Position numbers and translations under genes: made by a program. A model generated the notes under the pieces. That model saw only the letters and a program-made list of their open reading frames with translations. It ran no database searches and was not told the DNA's origin. From Sphaerobacter thermophilus DSM 20745 (GTDB taxonomy: Bacteria; Chloroflexota; Chloroflexia; Thermomicrobiales; Thermomicrobiaceae), in contig NC_013524.1 in the NCBI RefSeq assembly GCF_000024985.1, positions 434,001 to 498,000 of the forward strand: a stretch of 64,000 bases of DNA, in the 5' to 3' direction. This document shows positions 2,739 through 27,669 of the stretch, in pieces (the first letter of the stretch is position 1; each line of letters starts with the position of its first letter).

Positions 2739-3581
2739 ATGATCGAGTTCATTGATGTGCACGTGCACCTTCGCACCGGCGACAAGGCGCGTCTGGAGGC
2801 CGACCCCTACGTGATCTCCAACCCGGAGGGCCTGAGCGACCACCCCGACGCCATGGCCGAGATGTACCGGGAGCTGAACGGCATGGCGGTCGTCTTCGAC
2901 ATCGACGACGAGACCCGCACCGGGCTCAAGGTCTCCAACGCCGAGATCGCCGAATGGGTGGCGAAGTACCCGGACGTCTTCATCGGCTTCGGCAGCGTCG
3001 ACCCCTGGAAGGGGAAAGCGGCGATCACCGAGGTCGAGCGCTGCGCCGACCTCGGCCTGCGCGGCATCAAGTTCCACCCGTCGGTGCAGGACTTCGCACC
3101 GAACGACCCGCGCTTCGACCCCCTGTGGGAGACCTGCCAGCGCCTGGGCCTCGCCATCCTCCTCCACACCGGGACGACGATGGCCGCCGCCGGCCAGCCG
3201 GGCGGCGGCGGCATCCGCCTCGACTACGGCCGACCCATCCCCTACATCGACGACATCGCCGCCCGCTTCCCCGAGCTGCGGATCATCATGGCGCACCCGG
3301 CCTGGCCCTGGCATGAGGAGCAGCTCGCTATTCTCCGTCACAAGCCCAACGTCTACATGGACCTGTCCGGCTGGGCGCCGAAGTACATCCCGCAGACCGT
3401 CATCCAGTACGCCAACTCGCTCATCCAGGACAAGGTCTTCTTCGGCTCCGACTTTCCCATGCTCACGCCCCATCGCTGGCTCCGCGAGTTCGCCGACCTC
3501 CCCCTCAAGGACACCGTGCGCCCCAAGATCCTCCGCGACAACGCCGCCCGCTTCTTCGGCCTCCAACTTAACGACCAGTAA
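2739..3581 (+). CDS. Amidohydrolase family 2 (ACMSD-like TIM-barrel hydrolase/decarboxylase)
   Basis: The 280-residue protein opens with FIDVHVHLRTGD, the metal-binding HxH after strand 1. It continues with GIKFHPSVQDF, LLHTGTT, IIMAHPAWPWHEEQ and a late FGSDFPMLTPHRW segment that supplies the catalytic aspartate. This order is typical of amidohydrolase-2 enzymes, which include ACMSD-type decarboxylases and lactonases acting on ring-cleavage or carboxylic products. It lies 51 nt after the ligase gene with an AAGG-type ribosome site, and a strong hairpin follows the stop, so it is probably the last gene of the operon. Hydrolase and decarboxylase functions cannot be told apart from sequence alone. 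Confidence 0.82.
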   Translation: MIEFIDVHVHLRTGDKARLEADPYVISNPEGLSDHPDAMAEMYRELNGMAVVFDIDDETRTGLKVSNAEIAEWVAKYPDVFIGFGSVDPWKGKAAITEVERCADLGLRGIKFHPSVQDFAPNDPRFDPLWETCQRLGLAILLHTGTTMAAAGQPGGGGIRLDYGRPIPYIDDIAARFPELRIIMAHPAWPWHEEQLAILRHKPNVYMDLSGWAPKYIPQTVIQYANSLIQDKVFFGSDFPMLTPHRWLREFADLPLKDTVRPKILRDNAARFFGLQLNDQ

Positions 3582-3587
3582 CAACGC

Positions 3588-3610
3588 GGGGCGGGTGAGA
3601 CACCCGCCCC
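3588..3610 (+). terminator. Hairpin terminator after amidohydrolase operon
   Basis: A perfect 10-bp stem (GGGGCGGGTG / CACCCGCCCC) with a 3-nt loop begins 6 nt after the amidohydrolase stop. No long T-run follows, which is common in high-GC genomes. Position and stem strength make it the likely operon end. Confidence 0.6.
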
Positions 3611-3864
3611 TGCTCCATCCCGGTCGTCGGCACTGGCTACTGAAGGAAGCGCCGGTCAGGCACCCGCGGACAGACCTCGGAGCCAGGCTCGCGACGAGGC
3701 ACCCACGAACGGAGACGGTCTTCCCTAAACACGAAATGCGGCGCCTGTTGGTGCCACGCCGCTCCTACGCTTAGGCGAAGTCAATCGCAGGTCGTCTGGC
3801 GGCATTGGACCGAGGTACATGAATGAGGTGCTGGCACCGATTAGGCCCGAATAAGCAGAGGAAC

Positions 3865-4209
3865 TCAGCGACCCGTCTCAAGGACGTCAGCCCATGCGCC
3901 GTCCGTATCAGCGGAGCGCATAGGAGCGTACATGAGCCTCATCGCTTCCCGGCGCGCCCGTGCCGCGATCTCGTGGGACGGCACCCGCCTGCGCTCGAGG
4001 TCGCCGTAGATCCAGGGGATAAACAGGAAGTACTTCGCGCGCGTCTGGATCGTGCTCGTGCCCGGGAAGAGCAGCTCGGCGAAGGCATCCCGCACCGTCC
4101 CGATGCCGAGCTCATCGAGGGTCTGGCGATCCCGAAACAGCTCGACAATGTCGAGGACTTGCCGCCGCTCGTGCTCCGAGTAATCCAGCCAGCTTAACGA
4201 CGACGCCAT
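3865..4209 (-). pseudogene. DUF6361-family protein, N-terminal fragment
   Basis: From the ATG at 4209, preceded by a GAGGTGGG ribosome site, the frame encodes MASSLSWLDYSEHERRQVLD and then ELGIGTVRDAFAELLFPGTS and YFLFIPWIYGDLERRRV. I recognise this as the start of DUF6361 proteins, which usually run several hundred residues and often sit in phage-defence islands. Here the match ends after about 100 residues in a RSADTDGAWADVLETGR tail, and nothing continuing it appears downstream. I therefore call it a truncated gene. It points away from the DUF499/DUF1156/helicase module at 6.5-17 kb and was probably its divergent partner before repeats and an IS came to lie between them. The family assignment is from memory of the N-terminal motif. 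Confidence 0.65.
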
Positions 4210-4360
4210 CGTCCCACCTCGCTCGCCCACCCCAGGCCCAAGGTCGCATCAGTCGGTGACTCACCCTATGATGTTCCTTTTCGAGACATTGTAAGGGAAA
4301 CGGCAAAACGACTGCAGTACCGGGCGACTGGGCTCTCCTCCTCCCTATGCTGATTCAGGG

Positions 4361-4454
4361 TAAGCCCACTGAAGGGGCTGTGATGGCTACATCTCGGCTG
4401 ACCCGTTCCGGCATCCCGCCGGACTCAGCGCCCTGTAGCTCCTTCAGTGGGCTT
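4361..4454 (+). repeat. R2 palindromic repeat, copy 1
   Basis: A ~94-bp unit is bounded by inverted arms (TAAGCCCACTGAAGGGGCTG on the left; the right arm ends CTTCAGTGGGCTT). The same unit recurs at 4657-4749 and 57322-57414. It has no coding capacity. The arms are strong enough to form a long hairpin, and the interior varies between copies. Confidence 0.8.
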
Positions 4455-4465
4455 CGCTTTGTCAT

Positions 4466-4651
4466 CCCGGGGGTTATGGAGTCTTACGAATTACATGGAT
4501 GTACGCGATCGGTCCGTGCCCGGGGCTGAAGCCGCCGGGCTGACAACGGAAGCCCGCTGCAGCGGGCTGGGAACGACGACGAAGTCTAGCGGGCTGGTGA
4601 GCGGAGCGGCATTGCTGGCCCGTGCCCGGGGCTAAAGCCGCCGGGCTGACA
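4466..4651. repeat. Mosaic of R4, R1 and R3 intergenic repeats
   Basis: This stretch holds one R4 unit (4466-4524, inverse orientation to the copies at 6084-6143 and 6136-6188). It also has two R1 palindromes (4516-4545, 4622-4651; GTGCCCGGGGCT-A/G-AAGCCGCCGGGCTGACA type) with an R3 hairpin between them (AAGCCCGCTGCAGCGGGCT, about 4550-4569). R1 copies recur at 6066-6093, 57288-57317, 57422-57448 and 57668-57695. No gene is visible here; short open frames across it are produced by the palindromes. Confidence 0.75.
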
Positions 4652-4656
4652 TTGGG

Positions 4657-4749
4657 TAAGCCCACTGAAGGGGCTGCGATGACTACGCGCGGGCGGAGCC
4701 GACCGGCCTCCCACCGGGCCCAGCGTCCCCAGCCCCTTCAGTGGGCTTT
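4657..4749 (+). repeat. R2 palindromic repeat, copy 2
   Basis: This is the second R2 unit, directly followed by an R1 palindrome (4754 onward) that the IS982 element interrupts. Its arms TAAGCCCACTGAAGGGGCTG and CAGCCCCTTCAGTGGGCTT are perfectly complementary. Confidence 0.8.
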
Positions 4750-4772
4750 GTATTGTCAGCCCGGCGGCTTTA

Positions 4773-5832
4773 ACGCTTGGTGTGAGTTAGCCGGGGCATG
4801 CTGTGCCCTCTTGACACAGGAAGGTGCCCACTTCCATACGGGAGATAGCTCGTATCCGTCTCCCACGAAAGGAGCACCCGATGGATGTGGACACCTTCCT
4901 GATTACAGTCTATGTCCTGGTCGACACCTTCTGCCAGACCCACCTGCCCCCGGAGCCCCACCGCCCCGGCCCCGCGCCGGCCCTGAGCCGCAGCGAGGTC
5001 TTGACCCTGGCCATCTTCGGGCAGTGGATGAGGTTCTCCAGTGAGCAGGACTTCTACCGCTACGCCGAGCGCCACCTGCGCCCCTACTTCCCGACCCTGC
5101 CCCACCGCAGCCAATACAACCGGCTGCTGCGGCGGCATCAGGTCGCCCTGGCCCAGTTCGCCCTCTACCTGGCAGACCAACTTGGCCGGGGGCCAGTGGC
5201 GGTGGATGTGCTCGATGTGGCGCCGGCTCCGGTGCGCAACGCCAAGCGCCGCGGGCGGGGCTGGCTGGCGGGCGAGGCCAACATCGGCTTCAGCTTGCGC
5301 CTGGGCTGGTTTGCCGGCTTCCGCGTGCTGACCGCCGTCAGCCTGGAGGGGGCGATCACCGGCTGGGGCGTGGCCCCGGCCAGCACCAATGAGCGGTCCC
5401 TCGCCGAGACCCTGATTGCCTGTCGGGCCCACCCCGATCCCCGCCTGCCCAGTGTCGGCACGCCGGTGGCGACCTATCTGGCCGACAGTGGCTTTGCCGG
5501 CGAGGACTACAAGGCGCACCTGGCGGCCACCTATGGCGTGACGCTGGTGGCCACCCCGCAGCGGGGCAGTCGGCGGCGCTGGCCCAAGGCGGTCCGCCGC
5601 TGGGTGGCCCGCCATCGCCAGATCGTGGAGACGGTCATCGGGCGGCTGCTGCACACCTTCGGCCTCGAGCGGGAGCGCCCGCACACCCTGGCGGGCTTCC
5701 AGGCGCGACTGGCGGCCAAGGTGGCGCTGCACAACCTCTGTTGCTGGCTGAATCGGCAGCAGGGGCGGCCGCTGCTGGCCGTGGCGAACCTGATCACCTG
5801 GTAGCCACGGCGCCCTAACTCACACCAAGCGT
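4773..5832 (+). mobile_element. Complete IS982-family insertion sequence
   Basis: The 1060-bp element has perfect 18-bp terminal inverted repeats (ACGCTTGGTGTGAGTTAG at 4773-4790 and its complement at 5815-5832). It is flanked by TTTA on both sides (4769-4772, 5833-5836), a 4-bp target duplication. Removing the element and one TTTA restores an uninterrupted R1 palindrome (GGCGGCTTTAGCCCCGGGC), which proves insertion into the repeat. One intact transposase gene fills it. A TTGACA box at 4811-4816 just inside the left end is a likely transposase -35 site. The intact ends and frame suggest recent activity. Confidence 0.92.
4881..5804 (+). CDS. IS982-family transposase
   Basis: The 307-residue DDE transposase starts at the ATG at 4881, preceded by AAAGGAG. 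An upstream in-frame ATG at 4824 lacks such a site. The N-terminal helical region contains LSRSEVLTLAIFGQWMRF and FYRYAERHLRPYFPTLPHRS, typical of IS982. The catalytic core has VAVDVLDVAP (first Asp region), YLADSGFAGEDY (second Asp) and VETVIGRLLHTFGLERER (Glu). It ends LAGFQARLAAKVALHNLCCW, the family C-terminus. The frame is intact, so the enzyme is probably functional. It should move its own element and any derivative sharing the 18-bp ends. Confidence 0.92.
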   Translation: MDVDTFLITVYVLVDTFCQTHLPPEPHRPGPAPALSRSEVLTLAIFGQWMRFSSEQDFYRYAERHLRPYFPTLPHRSQYNRLLRRHQVALAQFALYLADQLGRGPVAVDVLDVAPAPVRNAKRRGRGWLAGEANIGFSLRLGWFAGFRVLTAVSLEGAITGWGVAPASTNERSLAETLIACRAHPDPRLPSVGTPVATYLADSGFAGEDYKAHLAATYGVTLVATPQRGSRRRWPKAVRRWVARHRQIVETVIGRLLHTFGLERERPHTLAGFQARLAAKVALHNLCCWLNRQQGRPLLAVANLITW

Positions 5833-17334: not shown

Positions 17335-17413
<79 letters not shown>

Positions 17414-17518: not shown

Positions 17519-18649
17519 CTATCCAACGCCCAAAATGCCATCAATCTTATCGGCGGCGTCGCGGGCCAGCGTCGGGGCAACGTGGGAGTAGGTGCCGAGC
17601 GTCAGGGTGATTTGGGAGTGGCCCAGAATCTCCATGACGACGCGCGGATTCACGCCCTGGGCCATCAGCAGCGACGCGCAACCGTGCCGCAGATCGTGGA
17701 AGCGCAGCCAGGGCAGCCCGGCCTCGGCGCGCAGCCGGTGGAACTCGCGGGTCAGGTTGCGCGCGTCAATTGCGGTGCCGATGGTGCTGGTGAACACGAA
17801 CCCCTGATCGTCCCAGTAGGGCGCGGCGATGCGCTCTTCGAGTTGTCGGGTGCGGTGCTCTCGGAGCGCGCGCAGCGCCACGGCGGGCAAGGCGACGGTG
17901 CGGCGGCTGCGCTGCGTCTTGGGTTCCACGAGCACGAGCGCTCCCCCGCTCCGTTGCAGCGCGTAGCGGACGGTGAGCGTCCCGGCTTCGAGATCGACAT
18001 CATCCCAGCGCAGGCCCAAGGCTTCCCCTTGCCGCAGGCCTACAGCGAGCGCCACGGTGAAGAGGGCTTCGAGCCGATGCCCGGCCACGGTATCGAGGAA
18101 GTGGCGGGCTTCCTCTGGTGTCAGGAACCGGGCCGGGGGGCGGTCCTGCTTGGGCGGGGCAGCGAGCGCGGCGGCGTTGCGAGACACCAAGCCCCAGCGC
18201 ATCGCGTCATTGAGCGCCTTGCGCAGTACAGCCCGGTGATAGGTGACGGTGCGCGGGGACAGGCCGGCTGCCTGCTTCTGATTGATGTACCGCTGGACCT
18301 GATCCGGGGAGAGCCGAGCGAGCCGGGTACGGCCCAACGCCGGTGTCAGGTGGCGGGTGATAATGCCCCGATAACTCTCATAGGTGCGTGGTCGCAGCGA
18401 TGGTCGGGCGACGTCTTCGAGCCAGCGTTCGAGATAGTCCTTGACCGTCTCGCGCTCCGAGACGACCGGCAACCCGTACTGCTGCTCAACGAGGGCACGG
18501 GCCAGCTTGTCGGCAACCTCCTGGCGCGTTCGGCCATAGAAGGATTTCCGCCGCCGCGTCCCCTGCTCCCAGAACGTCATACGCGCTTCCCAATAGCCGT
18601 CCGGTCGCTCGCGAATCGACCCCTCATTGTTCCCTCGATGCCTGGCCAT
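17519..18649 (-). CDS. Tyrosine recombinase / integrase
   Basis: The 376-residue phage-type integrase starts MARHRGNNEGSIRERPDGYWEARMTF, an arm-binding AP2-like N-terminus. A SAM-like core-binding domain follows (VKDYLERWLEDVARPSLRPR). The catalytic domain has the first Arg in AVGLRQGEALGLRWDDVDL, HDLRHGCASLLMAQG for the His-x-x-Arg pair, and LGHSQITLTLGTYSHV for the second His and the nucleophilic Tyr. All catalytic residues are present, so it is probably active. It lies beside attL on the strand facing the tRNA and 3 nt after the 219-residue gene, with which it forms an operon. Confidence 0.93.
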   Translation of the reverse strand: MARHRGNNEGSIRERPDGYWEARMTFWEQGTRRRKSFYGRTRQEVADKLARALVEQQYGLPVVSERETVKDYLERWLEDVARPSLRPRTYESYRGIITRHLTPALGRTRLARLSPDQVQRYINQKQAAGLSPRTVTYHRAVLRKALNDAMRWGLVSRNAAALAAPPKQDRPPARFLTPEEARHFLDTVAGHRLEALFTVALAVGLRQGEALGLRWDDVDLEAGTLTVRYALQRSGGALVLVEPKTQRSRRTVALPAVALRALREHRTRQLEERIAAPYWDDQGFVFTSTIGTAIDARNLTREFHRLRAEAGLPWLRFHDLRHGCASLLMAQGVNPRVVMEILGHSQITLTLGTYSHVAPTLARDAADKIDGILGVG

Positions 18650-19728: not shown

Positions 19729-20373
19729 ATGATATCACAAAACACCCACGGCGGCACGACGAATCCCTTCCGCGCTCAGGCGCGCCTTGAGACGGATGAT
19801 TGGCTGCGCGCCACCATCCACCAAGTCGATTGGCTGCTCACGGACGGTGACGACCTATCCGACGATGACCGCCAGTTGCTCCGCTGGGAGAAAGAGGCGG
19901 CCGAAGCCGAACTGGCGCGGCGCTGGGCCCGCGGCATATCCTACCCAGCCTGCGACTTCGGCTTCGAGCGGGAGACGATCGAGCGGATCAAGACGGCCTG
20001 GCCGATCGAGGCCGTGATCGGGCTCGACGTGCCGCTGCGGCCCGTCGGCAGGGGCTATCGCGGTAAGTGTCCCTTCCATGACGGCAAGTCCGACAACTCC
20101 CTGAGCGTGAAGCCTGGCGTCGACGGCGCCTTCTACTGCTTCGGCTGCCGGTTCGGCGGGGACGTGCTCGCGTGGATCATGGCGTTCCACCGGTGCGAGT
20201 TCAGTGAGGCCCTTCGCAGGCTCGCCCACATGGCCGGTCTGCCGATTCCAATGCGGCGCCGGCCTCAGCCGCCGTCTAAGGGACCGGTGCGGGAGGTGGA
20301 CGCTTACGTCTGGCAGCCCAAACGCAAGCCGAGCCGGCGCGGCCTCCGCGTGCGGGAGGTGGGTCGTGTCTGA
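19729..20373 (+). CDS. CHC2 zinc-finger primase-like protein
   Basis: In this 214-residue protein the second half is a CHC2 zinc finger of the DnaG type. KCPFHDGKSDNSLSVKPGV supplies Cys and His and AFYCFGCRFGGDVLAWIM supplies Cys-x2-Cys, preceded by the usual hydrophobic VIGLDVPLRPVGRGYRG stretch and followed by EALRRLAHMAGL. No TOPRIM or RNA-polymerase domain follows. Priming catalysis must therefore come from another protein, or this unit may only bind template. It overlaps the ATPase gene by 8 nt. A short tail rich in Arg and Lys ends the protein. Confidence 0.82.
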   Translation: MISQNTHGGTTNPFRAQARLETDDWLRATIHQVDWLLTDGDDLSDDDRQLLRWEKEAAEAELARRWARGISYPACDFGFERETIERIKTAWPIEAVIGLDVPLRPVGRGYRGKCPFHDGKSDNSLSVKPGVDGAFYCFGCRFGGDVLAWIMAFHRCEFSEALRRLAHMAGLPIPMRRRPQPPSKGPVREVDAYVWQPKRKPSRRGLRVREVGRV

Positions 20374-24424: not shown

Positions 24425-25603
24425 ATGCAAATCATTAGTATGCCGGAGGTGCGTGACATTCACGACGCGCGCGCCAAGCGCCGGGAACTGCTGACGCGGA
24501 TGGCAAATCTGGAACAGCGCATCGCCAACGGTGACAATTCGTGCCGGCCGCTGCTGGAGGCCGATCGGGAGACGGTGGCAGCGCTCGAAGCGTTCATCGA
24601 ACACGAGCAAGAACGGCGCGAGGCGCGTGACCGCGCGGAGGGCGCGGGACGAAGCGATCCGTACGAACCGCCGCCAGCCGACGCGCGGTACGGGCTGACG
24701 GGCGCGGTGGACGCGCCCGAACCGGTGGGGCTGGCGCGGGCGATCCGTGAGGCGGGGTGGCACCTGCGCGAGCGCCCCAGCGTGCGCTTGGAGGCGCGGC
24801 ACGTGTTCCCGGCCGCCGGGGACCTGCGGCCAAGTACTGTCGGCGGGGTGCTGCCGCTCGGGCGGGATGAGCGCTTCCTGTGGCCGCTCCTGCGTCGGCA
24901 GGTTGTCGAGCCGGGGCAGACCGCGGTCCGCGACTTCCGCCAGACGGGACGCACCGTGACCGGCACCGTGGAGCGCGCGCTAGATGCCACGAGCGAGAAG
25001 GCGCGGCTGGAGCTGGATGTTGTGCACGTTGACGAGGCGTTGCGGCAGCTGGCCATCCTGATCCCAGACGTGCCCAACGTCGTATTGGAGTCCCTGGACA
25101 CGGCGGCGGAGTTCTTCCGCACCGAGGCGACGTACCAACTGAACCGGGCGCTTGATGCGCACGTGCACAGCCAGATCGTGGCCGCGAACCCACCCCAGGG
25201 CGCGACGGGCGCCGACTTGGTGGAGCAGGTGCGGCGGGGCATCGCGGCCATGCGGGCGGCCGGCGCCCGGCCGACCATCCTCGTGCTCAACCCGGACGAC
25301 GCGGCCGAGCTCGACCTGCTGAAGCAGCCGGGGACGGCCGACTACATGTTCCCGACGCGACAGGCCGGGGCGGCGTCGCCGTTGTGGGGGCTGGCTGTGG
25401 TCGAACGGGCCGAACCGGCCGACGCGCCGCCGGTACTGATCGACCCGGATCGGCTCGGGCGGCTGCACCTGGGGGACATTGAGTTCCTGGCCGACCCGTA
25501 CACCGGGCTCACGACCAACACGACGAACTTGCGGTTTGAGGTGAACGCGCTGTTCGTCGTGCGGGACGCGACGGCGGCCTACGTCGTGGCCCCCCCGGCC
25601 TAG
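24425..25603 (+). CDS. HK97-fold phage major capsid protein
   Basis: The 392-residue protein has a perfect AAGGAGGTG ribosome site, fitting high expression. Residues ~10-65 form a charged coiled coil (RRELLTRMANLEQRIANGDN, EAFIEHEQERREARDRAEG) like the HK97 scaffolding delta domain. After a linker, the core shows DLRPSTVGGVLPLGRDERFL, VHVDEALRQLAILIPDVPNV, FFRTEATYQLNRALDAHVHS, PTILVLNPDDAAELDLLKQP, LWGLAVVERAEP and LRFEVNALFVVRDATAAYVV, the usual strand order of the family. No protease or portal is encoded nearby. Proteolytic maturation, if any, would need a helper. A long hairpin terminator follows the stop. Confidence 0.85.
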   Translation: MQIISMPEVRDIHDARAKRRELLTRMANLEQRIANGDNSCRPLLEADRETVAALEAFIEHEQERREARDRAEGAGRSDPYEPPPADARYGLTGAVDAPEPVGLARAIREAGWHLRERPSVRLEARHVFPAAGDLRPSTVGGVLPLGRDERFLWPLLRRQVVEPGQTAVRDFRQTGRTVTGTVERALDATSEKARLELDVVHVDEALRQLAILIPDVPNVVLESLDTAAEFFRTEATYQLNRALDAHVHSQIVAANPPQGATGADLVEQVRRGIAAMRAAGARPTILVLNPDDAAELDLLKQPGTADYMFPTRQAGAASPLWGLAVVERAEPADAPPVLIDPDRLGRLHLGDIEFLADPYTGLTTNTTNLRFEVNALFVVRDATAAYVVAPPA

Positions 25604-25673: not shown

Positions 25674-25708
25674 GAACACGGCCGCGGTTGATCGCCGCGG
25701 CCGTGTTC
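25674..25708 (+). terminator. Strong hairpin terminator after the capsid gene
   Basis: A 14-bp perfect stem (GAACACGGCCGCGG / CCGCGGCCGTGTTC) with a 7-nt loop lies 70 bp after the capsid stop. No other gene on + follows in the element, so it marks the end of the late operon. Confidence 0.8.
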
Positions 25709-25741
25709 TATGCAAGACCGAGATTGTGTGTCACAATTTGG

Positions 25742-26099
25742 GCATTGTCACATCTGTGACAATGCTCTCGGTATCCCGCACGACCGTCGGCGGTCATCAC
25801 GCGGCTGGGCATTGGTAAATCTTGACCAATGCCCTGGCGAAGGTCGTTAATGACAGTCGGATGGCTCACCCCCACCGCCTTCGCGTTCGGGTATTGATGC
25901 AATTGCATCAATACTCCGGGTGTCCCGGACAACTGTTGAATGATCCACCCCCACCGCCTCTGCGATCCGCCGCGTGCTCCACCCCGTGCGACCACGCGCG
26001 CGGGGGTGCCGGGTTCGAGGAAGGTGGTAAATCTTGACCACCTGACATGCGCCCACGCGCGCGGGGGCAACTTGGCATTGAAACATCTGATTCAATGCC
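25742..26099. repeat. Series of five hairpins with 8-nt loops and variable arms
   Basis: Perfect inverted repeats, each with exactly 8 nt between the arms, lie at 25742-25765, 25807-25834, 25891-25914, 26022-26043 and 26074-26099. Their arms are 8, 10, 8, 7 and 9 bp. Arm sequences differ but stay complementary (GCATTGTC, GGGCATTGGT, GTATTGAT, AGGTGGT, GGCATTGAA). The loops are alike in four of them (ACATCTGT, AAATCTTG, AAATCTTG, ACATCTGA; the third is GCAATTGC). Compensatory arm variation points to selection for structure or for dyad protein sites. No known family is recognised. Confidence 0.7.
25766..26010 (-). pseudogene. Remnant of a helix-turn-helix protein
   Basis: Two minus-strand frames encode clear helix-turn-helix segments: RTGWSTRRIAEAVGVDHSTV (from about 26001 down) and, in another frame, NAKAVGVSHPTVINDLRQG (about 25890-25835) followed by SRVMTADGRAGYR. 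The frame changes and the hairpins lie exactly at the joints. This looks like a Xre/ParB-like regulator of the element disrupted by inserted palindromes, or two diverged copies. No single frame covers it. Confidence 0.45.
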
Positions 26100-26134
26100 C
26101 TCGACACATGCGCCCACGCGCGCGGGGGCAACTT
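25984..26134 (-). repeat. Three 29-bp direct repeats with 61-bp period (CRISPR-like, unproven)
   Basis: Two identical 29-bp repeats (26045-26073 and 26106-26134; core GCGCCCACGCGCGCGGGGGC) are separated by 32 bp. A third, diverged copy (25984-26012, about 21 of 29 matches) keeps the same 61-bp period. Repeat and spacer lengths equal those of type I-E CRISPR arrays, and a degenerate last repeat is usual there. However, both spacers contain hairpins of the series described at 25742-26099, and no cas gene is present. I therefore do not call a CRISPR array. Confidence 0.5.
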
Positions 26135-26434
26135 CTTCAAATGAATAAGTCGCCTGGGCATCACCATGCGGTTGCCTTTGAAATGTTCGCGGCCGTCGCG
26201 GCAACTTGACACGCGTTATTTGGCCCCAGGACGTGCGAAGCGGCCCACGCGAGCAGCTAGAGAGTCCTACGAGCTAACTGCGGCGCTCCTGGGCGATTGT
26301 GGCGCGTTGTGGGCGCCTATTGCCATTCCCGGAGGCTGGCCGTACAATGCGAACGGACATAAGAGACGCCCCGCGCTGCGGACACAGCCGGGGCGATGAC
26401 AGACACCTGACCTGGAGGTGCTGTAGTGAGCAGT

Positions 26435-26683: not shown

Positions 26684-27669
26684 ATGCAGTCGGGGCAGCT
26701 GATTCGCCTGGTTTCGGACGACGATCTGGGCGTCTGGATCAGCGCGTTCCTCGACGACTGCCGCCTCGCGAATCTCACCCCCAAGACGCTCCGGTTCTAG
26801 GAGGCCAACCTTGGCCGGTTCCGCTGGTGGTGTGAGACGTCCGGCGCCCCGCCCCGGCCGGAGGCGCTGACGCCGGAGACTATCCGCCAGTTCCTACGCT
26901 ATGTGCAGGAGGCCGAGGGCCGCTGGGGCAAACCCGATCACCCGATGGCGCGGAAGGCCACCAAGGACTCGACGCAACACGCCTACTTCCGCTGCCTGCG
27001 CCGCTGGTTCAACCGGCTGGTGGAGCAGGAGGTCATCGCGCGCTCGCCGATGGAGAAGCTCTGCGCGCCCCGTGTCCGGCAAGAGCAGCCGGACCCGTTC
27101 TCGCAGGATGAGCTAGAACGCCTGGCCACGGCGCTACGCGGACTGGCGATGGGATGCTGGCCGATCGCAACCGGGCAATCGTGGCGGTGCTACTCGACGT
27201 GGGGCTGCGTGCTGCCGAGCTCGCCGCGATCCAGGTGCCGCACCTCTCGATCGCTACCGGCGACCTCTATGTCGACGCCGGCAAGGGCAACTAGCCGCGG
27301 CGCCTGCGCCTCGGCGCCCGGGCGCGGTGCCAGGTGCGGCGCTACTGGCTCCGTCACCGGGCGGCGCTCGGCACGGAGGGCGCCTTCTTCCTTGCCGATG
27401 ACTACGAGCCGCTGACGGCCGGCGGTGTCCACTTCATCACCACGCGGCTTGGCGAGCGCGCCAGCGCGTTCCCCTGCACCCCGCACCGGTTCCGGCATAC
27501 GTTCGCGGTGAACGCGATCCGCGCCGGGACGGGACTGCTTCAGCTCCAGCAGATGCTCGGACATACCGACCTGACGATGGTGCGGCGGTATGTGAAGCTC
27601 GCCGAGGGCGACATCGCCGAGGCAGCACAGAAGCACAGCCCGTTTGACCACATGCGACTCACGTTGTAG
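26684..27669 (+). pseudogene. Tyrosine recombinase, broken by stops and a frameshift
   Basis: A CAGGAGG site precedes the ATG at 26684. The frame encodes MQSGQLIRLVSDDDLGVWIS and a core-binding domain (FLDDCRLANLTPKTLRF, then an amber stop at 26798-26800, then EANLGRFRWWCETSG and YFRCLRRWFNRLVEQEVIAR). A shift near 27140-27160 moves the catalytic domain to another frame (VAVLLDVGLRAAELAAIQVP). A second amber follows at about 27294, and then HRFRHTFAVNAIRAGTG and LLQLQQMLGHTDLTMVRRYV with the His, Arg and Tyr sites. It is a dead integrase just outside attR, probably the relic of an earlier element at the same site. Confidence 0.85.

Follow-up and report, generated by a model that had tools for sequence, protein, structure and literature searches.

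Results

The window analyzed here, a 64,000-nt stretch of the Sphaerobacter thermophilus DSM 20745 genome, carries a satellite in which 19729-20373 is a primase-like gene and 24425-25603 gives a weak capsid match. A tRNA-Lys gene (17335-17410) next to an integrase gene (17519-18649) is the likely attachment site of this satellite. Further along lies an array of palindromic sequences, and the adjoining tyrosine recombinase gene (26684-27669) is disrupted by frame changes and a stop codon in frame.

Positions 25700-26199 contain five dyads whose arms reach 7 nt or more and whose centre is exactly 8 nt, whereas 2000 dinucleotide shuffles averaged 0.056 and never gave more than 2; for the family pattern of the array, 0 matches are expected in the window. 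All five inverted repeats listed in the initial annotation are present. Read on the minus strand, dyad 1 (25741-25766; GGCATTGTCACATCTGTGACAATGCT) has the half-site CATT-GTCAC-AT, dyad 2 (25808-25833; GGCATTGGTAAATCTTGACCAATGCC) CATT-GGTAA-AT, and dyad 3 (25890-25915; GGTATTGATGCAATTGCATCAATACT), a perfect 24-nt palindrome, TATT-GATGC-AA. Dyad 4 (26022-26043; AGGTGGTAAATCTTGACCACCT) and dyad 5 (26074-26099; GGCATTGAAACATCTGATTCAATGCC), also on the minus strand, have the half-sites AGGT-GGTAA-AT and CATT-GAAAC-AT, respectively. The arms vary in concert on both sides (GGT/ACC, GTC/GAC, GAA/TTC, and GAT/ATC), with four different variable parts among the five dyads. This bears out the earlier observation that the arms change together, and that the dyad is conserved rather than its sequence. 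The 8-nt loop that had been described stands as a constant centre and falls as a loop: in dyad 1 the centre pairs on (ACA/TGT), leaving 2 nt unpaired, and dyad 3 has no loop at all. The 8-nt element is a fixed central spacer, at the middle of a site of protein-binding type. Because it pairs in two of the five units, the register is better given as a 22-bp dyad, in which the outer tetrad (CATT, TATT, or AGGT) lies 11 nt from the centre.

On the minus strand, the dyads fall within fragments of HTH genes; wherever HTH codons remain, the dyad sits shortly 3′ of them. Dyad 1 follows the fragment PTVVRDTES, of which the recognition-helix part PTVVRDT spans 25770-25790 (minus strand). Dyad 2 is paired with the HTH fragment NAKAVGVSHPTVINDLR (25837-25887, minus strand), which has an SHPT helix and has lost the N-terminus of helix 2, and dyad 3 with GWSTRRIAEAVGVDHSTVVRDT (25920-25982, minus strand), in which the helix is complete and which belongs to an ORF of 121 aa (25847-26212, minus strand). 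Dyads 4 and 5 occur in 61-bp units stripped of the HTH (PRARGRM-SGGQDLPPSSN in the unit of dyad 4). Two copies of a 29-nt stub, a remnant of the pre-HTH region, recur with the 61-bp period at 26045-26073 and 26106-26134 (both minus strand); they are 100% identical to each other, while the dyads beside them differ. A CRISPR-like array, which 29-nt repeats at a 61-bp period could suggest, was rejected, as there are just two identical copies and the "spacers" are palindromes. The window holds what is best read as the decayed remains of tandem modules within a satellite prophage: all five dyads are still intact, but of the HTHs only one is complete, a second is truncated, and a third is down to a helix fragment, and two units have none.

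The other replicon of this genome carries a further satellite (L021) with the same arrangement of HTH and dyad. There, a coherent 96-aa ORF (GWSTRRIAKAVGVHKDTVRNDLMSIGEISPPAATITGRDGKQYPARRP) carries the dyad in the linker between the HTH and the sequence GRDGKQYPA, and a second HTH (SQRT) is followed by its own dyad. Dyads of the form CATTG-N12-CAATG occur four times in the whole 3.99-Mb genome, three of them in the window array and one in the L021 array, and the well-paired AGGTG dyads likewise fall in the two satellite arrays. Outside these two loci, no dispersed copy in the whole ~4-Mb genome is well paired, and a dispersed repeat of the REP, RPE, or MITE type was rejected on this basis. 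Within the class or phylum, relatives came from the same genome and one distant genome only. The two satellites also have about 35 bp that are nearly identical (CTTGACACGCGTTATTTGGCCCCAGGACG; window 26205-26240, L021 3868-3901). In L021 this segment is the 3′-terminal stretch of the HTH gene; in the window it lies on the opposite side of the array, which suggests rearrangement.

We selected further modules using a PSSM of the HTH only together with a downstream GxDG motif (GxDGKxYPA), ignoring linker and palindromes (cutoff 12; top score of shuffled sequences 10.7). The module layout is an HTH, a linker that is a 21-23-bp palindrome at the DNA level, and GxDGKxYPA. Perfect dyad arms of at least 7 nt were present in the linker of 56 of the 75 modules selected, and in 53 of 75 the linker dyad was significant (p < 0.05) relative to synonymous recoding with an unchanged protein, a conservative test because the dyad itself shapes the protein sequence. 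Such arms were absent in the other 19, which include a group of verrucomicrobial genes (L378, L381, L382, L293, L359, and L301) that have the same HTH and GxDGKxYPA and no dyad. These genes form a natural negative group, and because of them the dyad cannot be an automatic result of coding this linker. Comparable dyads were also rare at scanned DGKxYP loci without an HTH.

Viral and genomic contigs were scanned with the patterns DGKxYPA, TGxDGKxYP, VGxDGKxYP, and TGxDGKxRPA, which returned modules as well as unrelated proteins; TGxDGRxYPA returned unrelated proteins only, and a first search of viral sequences with the Sphaerobacter protein as query gave no matches. In the MT-A70 methyltransferase gene of a Mesorhizobium phage the dyad occupies exactly the linker position, as do the dyads of eleven related viral contigs, several of them with different arms. 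A lack of further units in any genome would have counted against the initial annotation; dozens of units exist. No comparable dyad was found for the HTH protein gp82 of Gordonia phage BearBQ. A Chloroflexota ABC-transporter gene (L030) matches exactly over 22 nt, which was put down to chance since the gene is unrelated, as was a match in an unrelated methylase of Arthrobacter phage Leona. Two PLSDB entries listed as E. coli plasmids (NZ_CP134663.1 and NZ_CP141089.1) are 4.9 Mb in size and probably are chromosomes labelled as plasmids.

Arrays or duplicates occur in L057, L192, L206, and L356 as well. In the phage contig L192, a module gene is accompanied by further palindromes of other specificity (4200-5050), and adjacent 31-bp units are one symmetric base change apart (AGGTGGAAGA vs. 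AGGTGGGAGA). L206 (3200-6000) holds three modules with different dyads plus HTH-less hairpin fossils sharing a leader, and one of these modules (3274-3816, minus strand) is apparently fused to a repressor-like C-terminal domain. In L383, the module is spanned by a mirrored copy whose arms reach 30 bp or more, possibly an assembly artefact or a true inverted duplication. In the DNA analyzed around the modules, second copies of a module's own dyad did not exceed chance (2 in total compared with 3.0 expected), and the complete genome of Mesorhizobium phage P1 has the in-gene copy only; the sequence examined offers no second cognate site.

Across 68 dyads the half-site reads AGGT(G/T)NNNNA(A/T), with total lengths of 21, 22, or 23 bp and a constant 10.5-11.5 nt between centre and outer tetrad; in the Sphaerobacter genome the half-site ends include CATT and TATT variants. 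The procedure that chose the dyads prefers AGGT ends, which introduces bias at positions 1-4 and none at positions 5-9. In an independent count, 4.46 Mb of sequence contained 63 distinct AGGT-ended dyads vs. 1-18 for ten control tetrads. Mismatched pairs were G.T in 3 and A.C in 8 cases at positions 1-9 (9 vs. 16 overall). Duplex DNA is favoured as the selected form because G.T mismatches, which RNA tolerates, are not commoner than their A.C mirror images. Searches of Rfam families returned no match for the array, and we rejected the structured RNA that had been proposed initially on these two grounds.

Site bases covary with the recognition helix. Among 55 non-redundant modules, half-site identity at bases 5-9 was 0.35, 0.37, 0.40, 0.56, and 0.91 for module pairs sharing 0, 1, 2, 3, and 4 of the 4 residues of the recognition tetrad, respectively, and the remaining HTH was mostly just 21-50% identical in these pairs. 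The partial Mantel correlation of tetrad and half-site was modest (0.18, p = 0.0002) and involves modules that are not phylogenetically independent; similarity of the rest of the HTH was correlated with the half-site as well (0.149). Counting residues from the first position of the scored HTH window in helix 2 (idx0), and counting half-sites except at base 5, where modules were counted, Arg at idx0 occurs with G5 in 49/49 cases and other residues with T5 in 11/15 (Fisher 3e-11). At idx10, Asp or Glu goes with C6 (33/34), Asn with T6 (8/8), and Val with T6 (12/14). At idx15, Arg goes with C9 (31/34), Lys with A9 (19/20), Asp or Glu with G9 (15/16), and Asn with A9 (8/8). The relation holds across phyla. 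In a profile alignment, idx9, 10, and 15 align with residues 172, 173, and 178 of Caulobacter ParB, which touch parS in the crystal structure, 173 being a specificity residue (PMC7383237).

Dyads and residue code derive from one data set. Modules outside the code derivation, drawn from records of phages and plasmids and from scans made later, agreed in this small held-out set at base 5 (8/8), base 9 (5/6), and base 6 (4/6), where chance would give about one quarter. The Arg at idx15 of the helix fragment beside dyad 1 fits C at base 9, and the SHPT unit of the window and the SQRT unit of L021 fit sites from other phyla: the SHPT helix accompanies a GGTAA site in the window, and GGTAC and TGTAA in two unrelated viral contigs (L247 and L206), while the L021 SQRT unit has GAGCA/GAGAA and a viral SQRY helix GAGAA. 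For the DHST unit, bases 5 and 9 agree with the code and base 6 does not.

A profile of 48 module proteins matches the structures of ParB, Spo0J, and Noc with E values of 1e-15 to 1e-10. Pfam ParB_N was detected in 11 of the 48, and the methyltransferase families MT-A70, Dam, and N6_N4 in 8, 4, and 3, respectively. Intact modules are mostly phage ParB-like proteins with a ParB-type N-terminal domain, the HTH, and often a C-terminal DNA methyltransferase. The ParB-CTPase N-terminal domain is absent from the ORFs of the window and from the 96-aa ORF of L021. Counting rightward from the immunity repressor or Cro/C1-type regulator, the module gene comes second in four annotated actinobacterial phage records; in Mesorhizobium phage P1 it belongs to the early region, past the repressor genes and upstream of replication genes. 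No ParA annotation appeared among the neighbours listed for a few phages.

Discussion

The most probable explanation, to which we assign a likelihood of roughly 85%, is that each dyad serves as cognate site for the HTH whose codons directly precede it within one gene. The operators considered in the initial annotation, and the association with a regulator gene, were right leads; that annotation missed the position of the dyads in minus-strand HTH modules, the way their variable bases follow the residues of the recognition helix, and the nature of the 8-nt element as the centre of a 22-bp site. A satellite-specific signal for packaging or replication, which it also considered, is not supported, as the arrangement is found in many unrelated phages and genes. 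The protein, as a dimer, would bind the palindrome in its gene in the manner of ParB on parS. With the site no more than ~60 bp from the codons of the recognition helix, specificity and site could move together in one recombination event. What such binding would achieve is a matter of speculation. Likely uses would be a parS-like role, with the protein nucleating on the genome of the phage that encodes it, and autorepression through a roadblock in the early operon. We rank loading site and roadblock about equally and consider an origin function or a self-recognition tag less likely.

The palindromes lie inside coding sequence and would fold, so that hairpins selected in the mRNA, acting in translational control, stability, or pausing, could be envisaged. 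Such a role seems highly improbable given the lack of G.T enrichment and of an Rfam family, a spacing fixed at two helical turns, the several dyads without a loop, and bases that covary with DNA-contacting residues. Equally improbable is the spread of REP-, RPE-, or MITE-like mobile palindromes into regulator genes without any role in binding. Tandem copies, some of them without an HTH, as seen in the window, L192, and L206, would be expected of such elements, as would identical 29-nt stubs beside different dyads; against this, only two loci exist in a 4-Mb genome, the dyad has a fixed place after the HTH codons across phyla, and the site sequence depends on the recognition helix.

Symmetry could alternatively have been made by mutation, with template switching perfecting imperfect palindromes, rather than by selection for binding. 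The perfect dyads of HTH-less units are in keeping with this, and palindrome-correcting mutation may help to keep symmetry in these units because adjacent 31-bp units of L192 differ by one symmetric change. For dyads 4 and 5, which lack an HTH, retained symmetry requires recent decay, palindrome repair by template switching, or use in trans. As the sole cause, mutation has hardly a better chance than RNA hairpins, for it leaves the residue-dependent choice of bases, the conserved AGGT ends, and the fixed length unexplained; it may well act in addition to selection. A further candidate is an origin of replication recognized by an initiator, for which lambda O and the iterons in its gene set a precedent (PMC4488673); the module gene of phage P1 lies upstream of replication genes. 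This, too, is unlikely, if somewhat less so than the preceding explanations: sites are usually single rather than iterons, units of one array differ in sequence, inspection reveals no evident A+T-rich block beside the window array, and the host proteins are ParB-like proteins and methyltransferases.

Sites within genes have been encountered in other systems. In B. subtilis, parS is located inside spo0J, and the palindromic elements of Rickettsia lie inside reading frames as dispersed repeats unrelated to DNA-binding domains. The latter resemble the module dyads in being in-frame palindromes and differ in that module dyads are tied to HTH codons. Among the systems close to the modules, ParB-parS and Noc-NBS share with them a ParB-type N-terminal domain plus HTH, a palindromic site, predicted in the case of the modules, and the HTH positions 172, 173, and 178, which are contacts in ParB (PMC7383237) and putative ones in the modules. 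Unlike the canonical 16-bp parS (TGTTTCACGTGAAACA type), however, the putative site of the modules is a 21-23-bp AGGT(G/T)NNNNA dyad located in the linker codons right after the HTH, its specificity is highly diverse, and many of the proteins are methyltransferase fusions. Phage fusions of ParB-CTPase and methyltransferase with the same architecture as the module proteins appear in a December 2025 survey of the ParB-CTPase fold, where their function is described as unknown; in its main text, palindromes, inverted repeats, and a protein's own gene go unmentioned (PMC12704722).

Lambda O likewise is a DNA-binding protein with binding sites in its own gene, but these are four near-identical iterons with an A+T-rich block, serving a replication initiator, whereas modules usually have a single dyad and a ParB-like protein (PMC4488673). 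The modules, which mostly have single dyads, do not match an in-gene origin of this type, and neither does the window array, where the five dyads have four variable parts. In the BstA/aba system, the locus of a prophage protein includes the DNA element, specific to that protein, which is its cognate and which gives self-immunity from abortive infection; unlike the module dyads, aba comprises 63 bp at the 5′ end of the gene, with terminal CCCGCC direct repeats and no reported palindrome (PMC8585504). Module dyads, which follow the HTH codons and are inverted rather than direct repeats, do not match an element of this type either. To our knowledge, no clan has been known whose linker codons, following the HTH, themselves make up the site, with site and HTH covarying. 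The initial annotation knew of no described family with this pattern, and we found none; a description of a cognate site within the linker did not turn up in the main texts of the open-licence literature, an absence that is not proof.

On balance, we favour the view that the modules constitute a large phage-borne clan of ParB-like proteins, each carrying its own predicted site in the gene, a "reader plus target" cassette that would be a natural protein-site library for the ParB HTH code. Arrays such as that of the window may represent retired or decoy specificities. If binding occurs as predicted, each module gene would record both halves of a protein-DNA recognition pair, making specificity readable from sequence across phyla, and the phage ParB-methyltransferase fusions would gain a defined target, i.e., their own gene. 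Phages would then keep a fast-evolving specificity linked to its target, following a logic comparable to that of lambda O/ori and BstA/aba.
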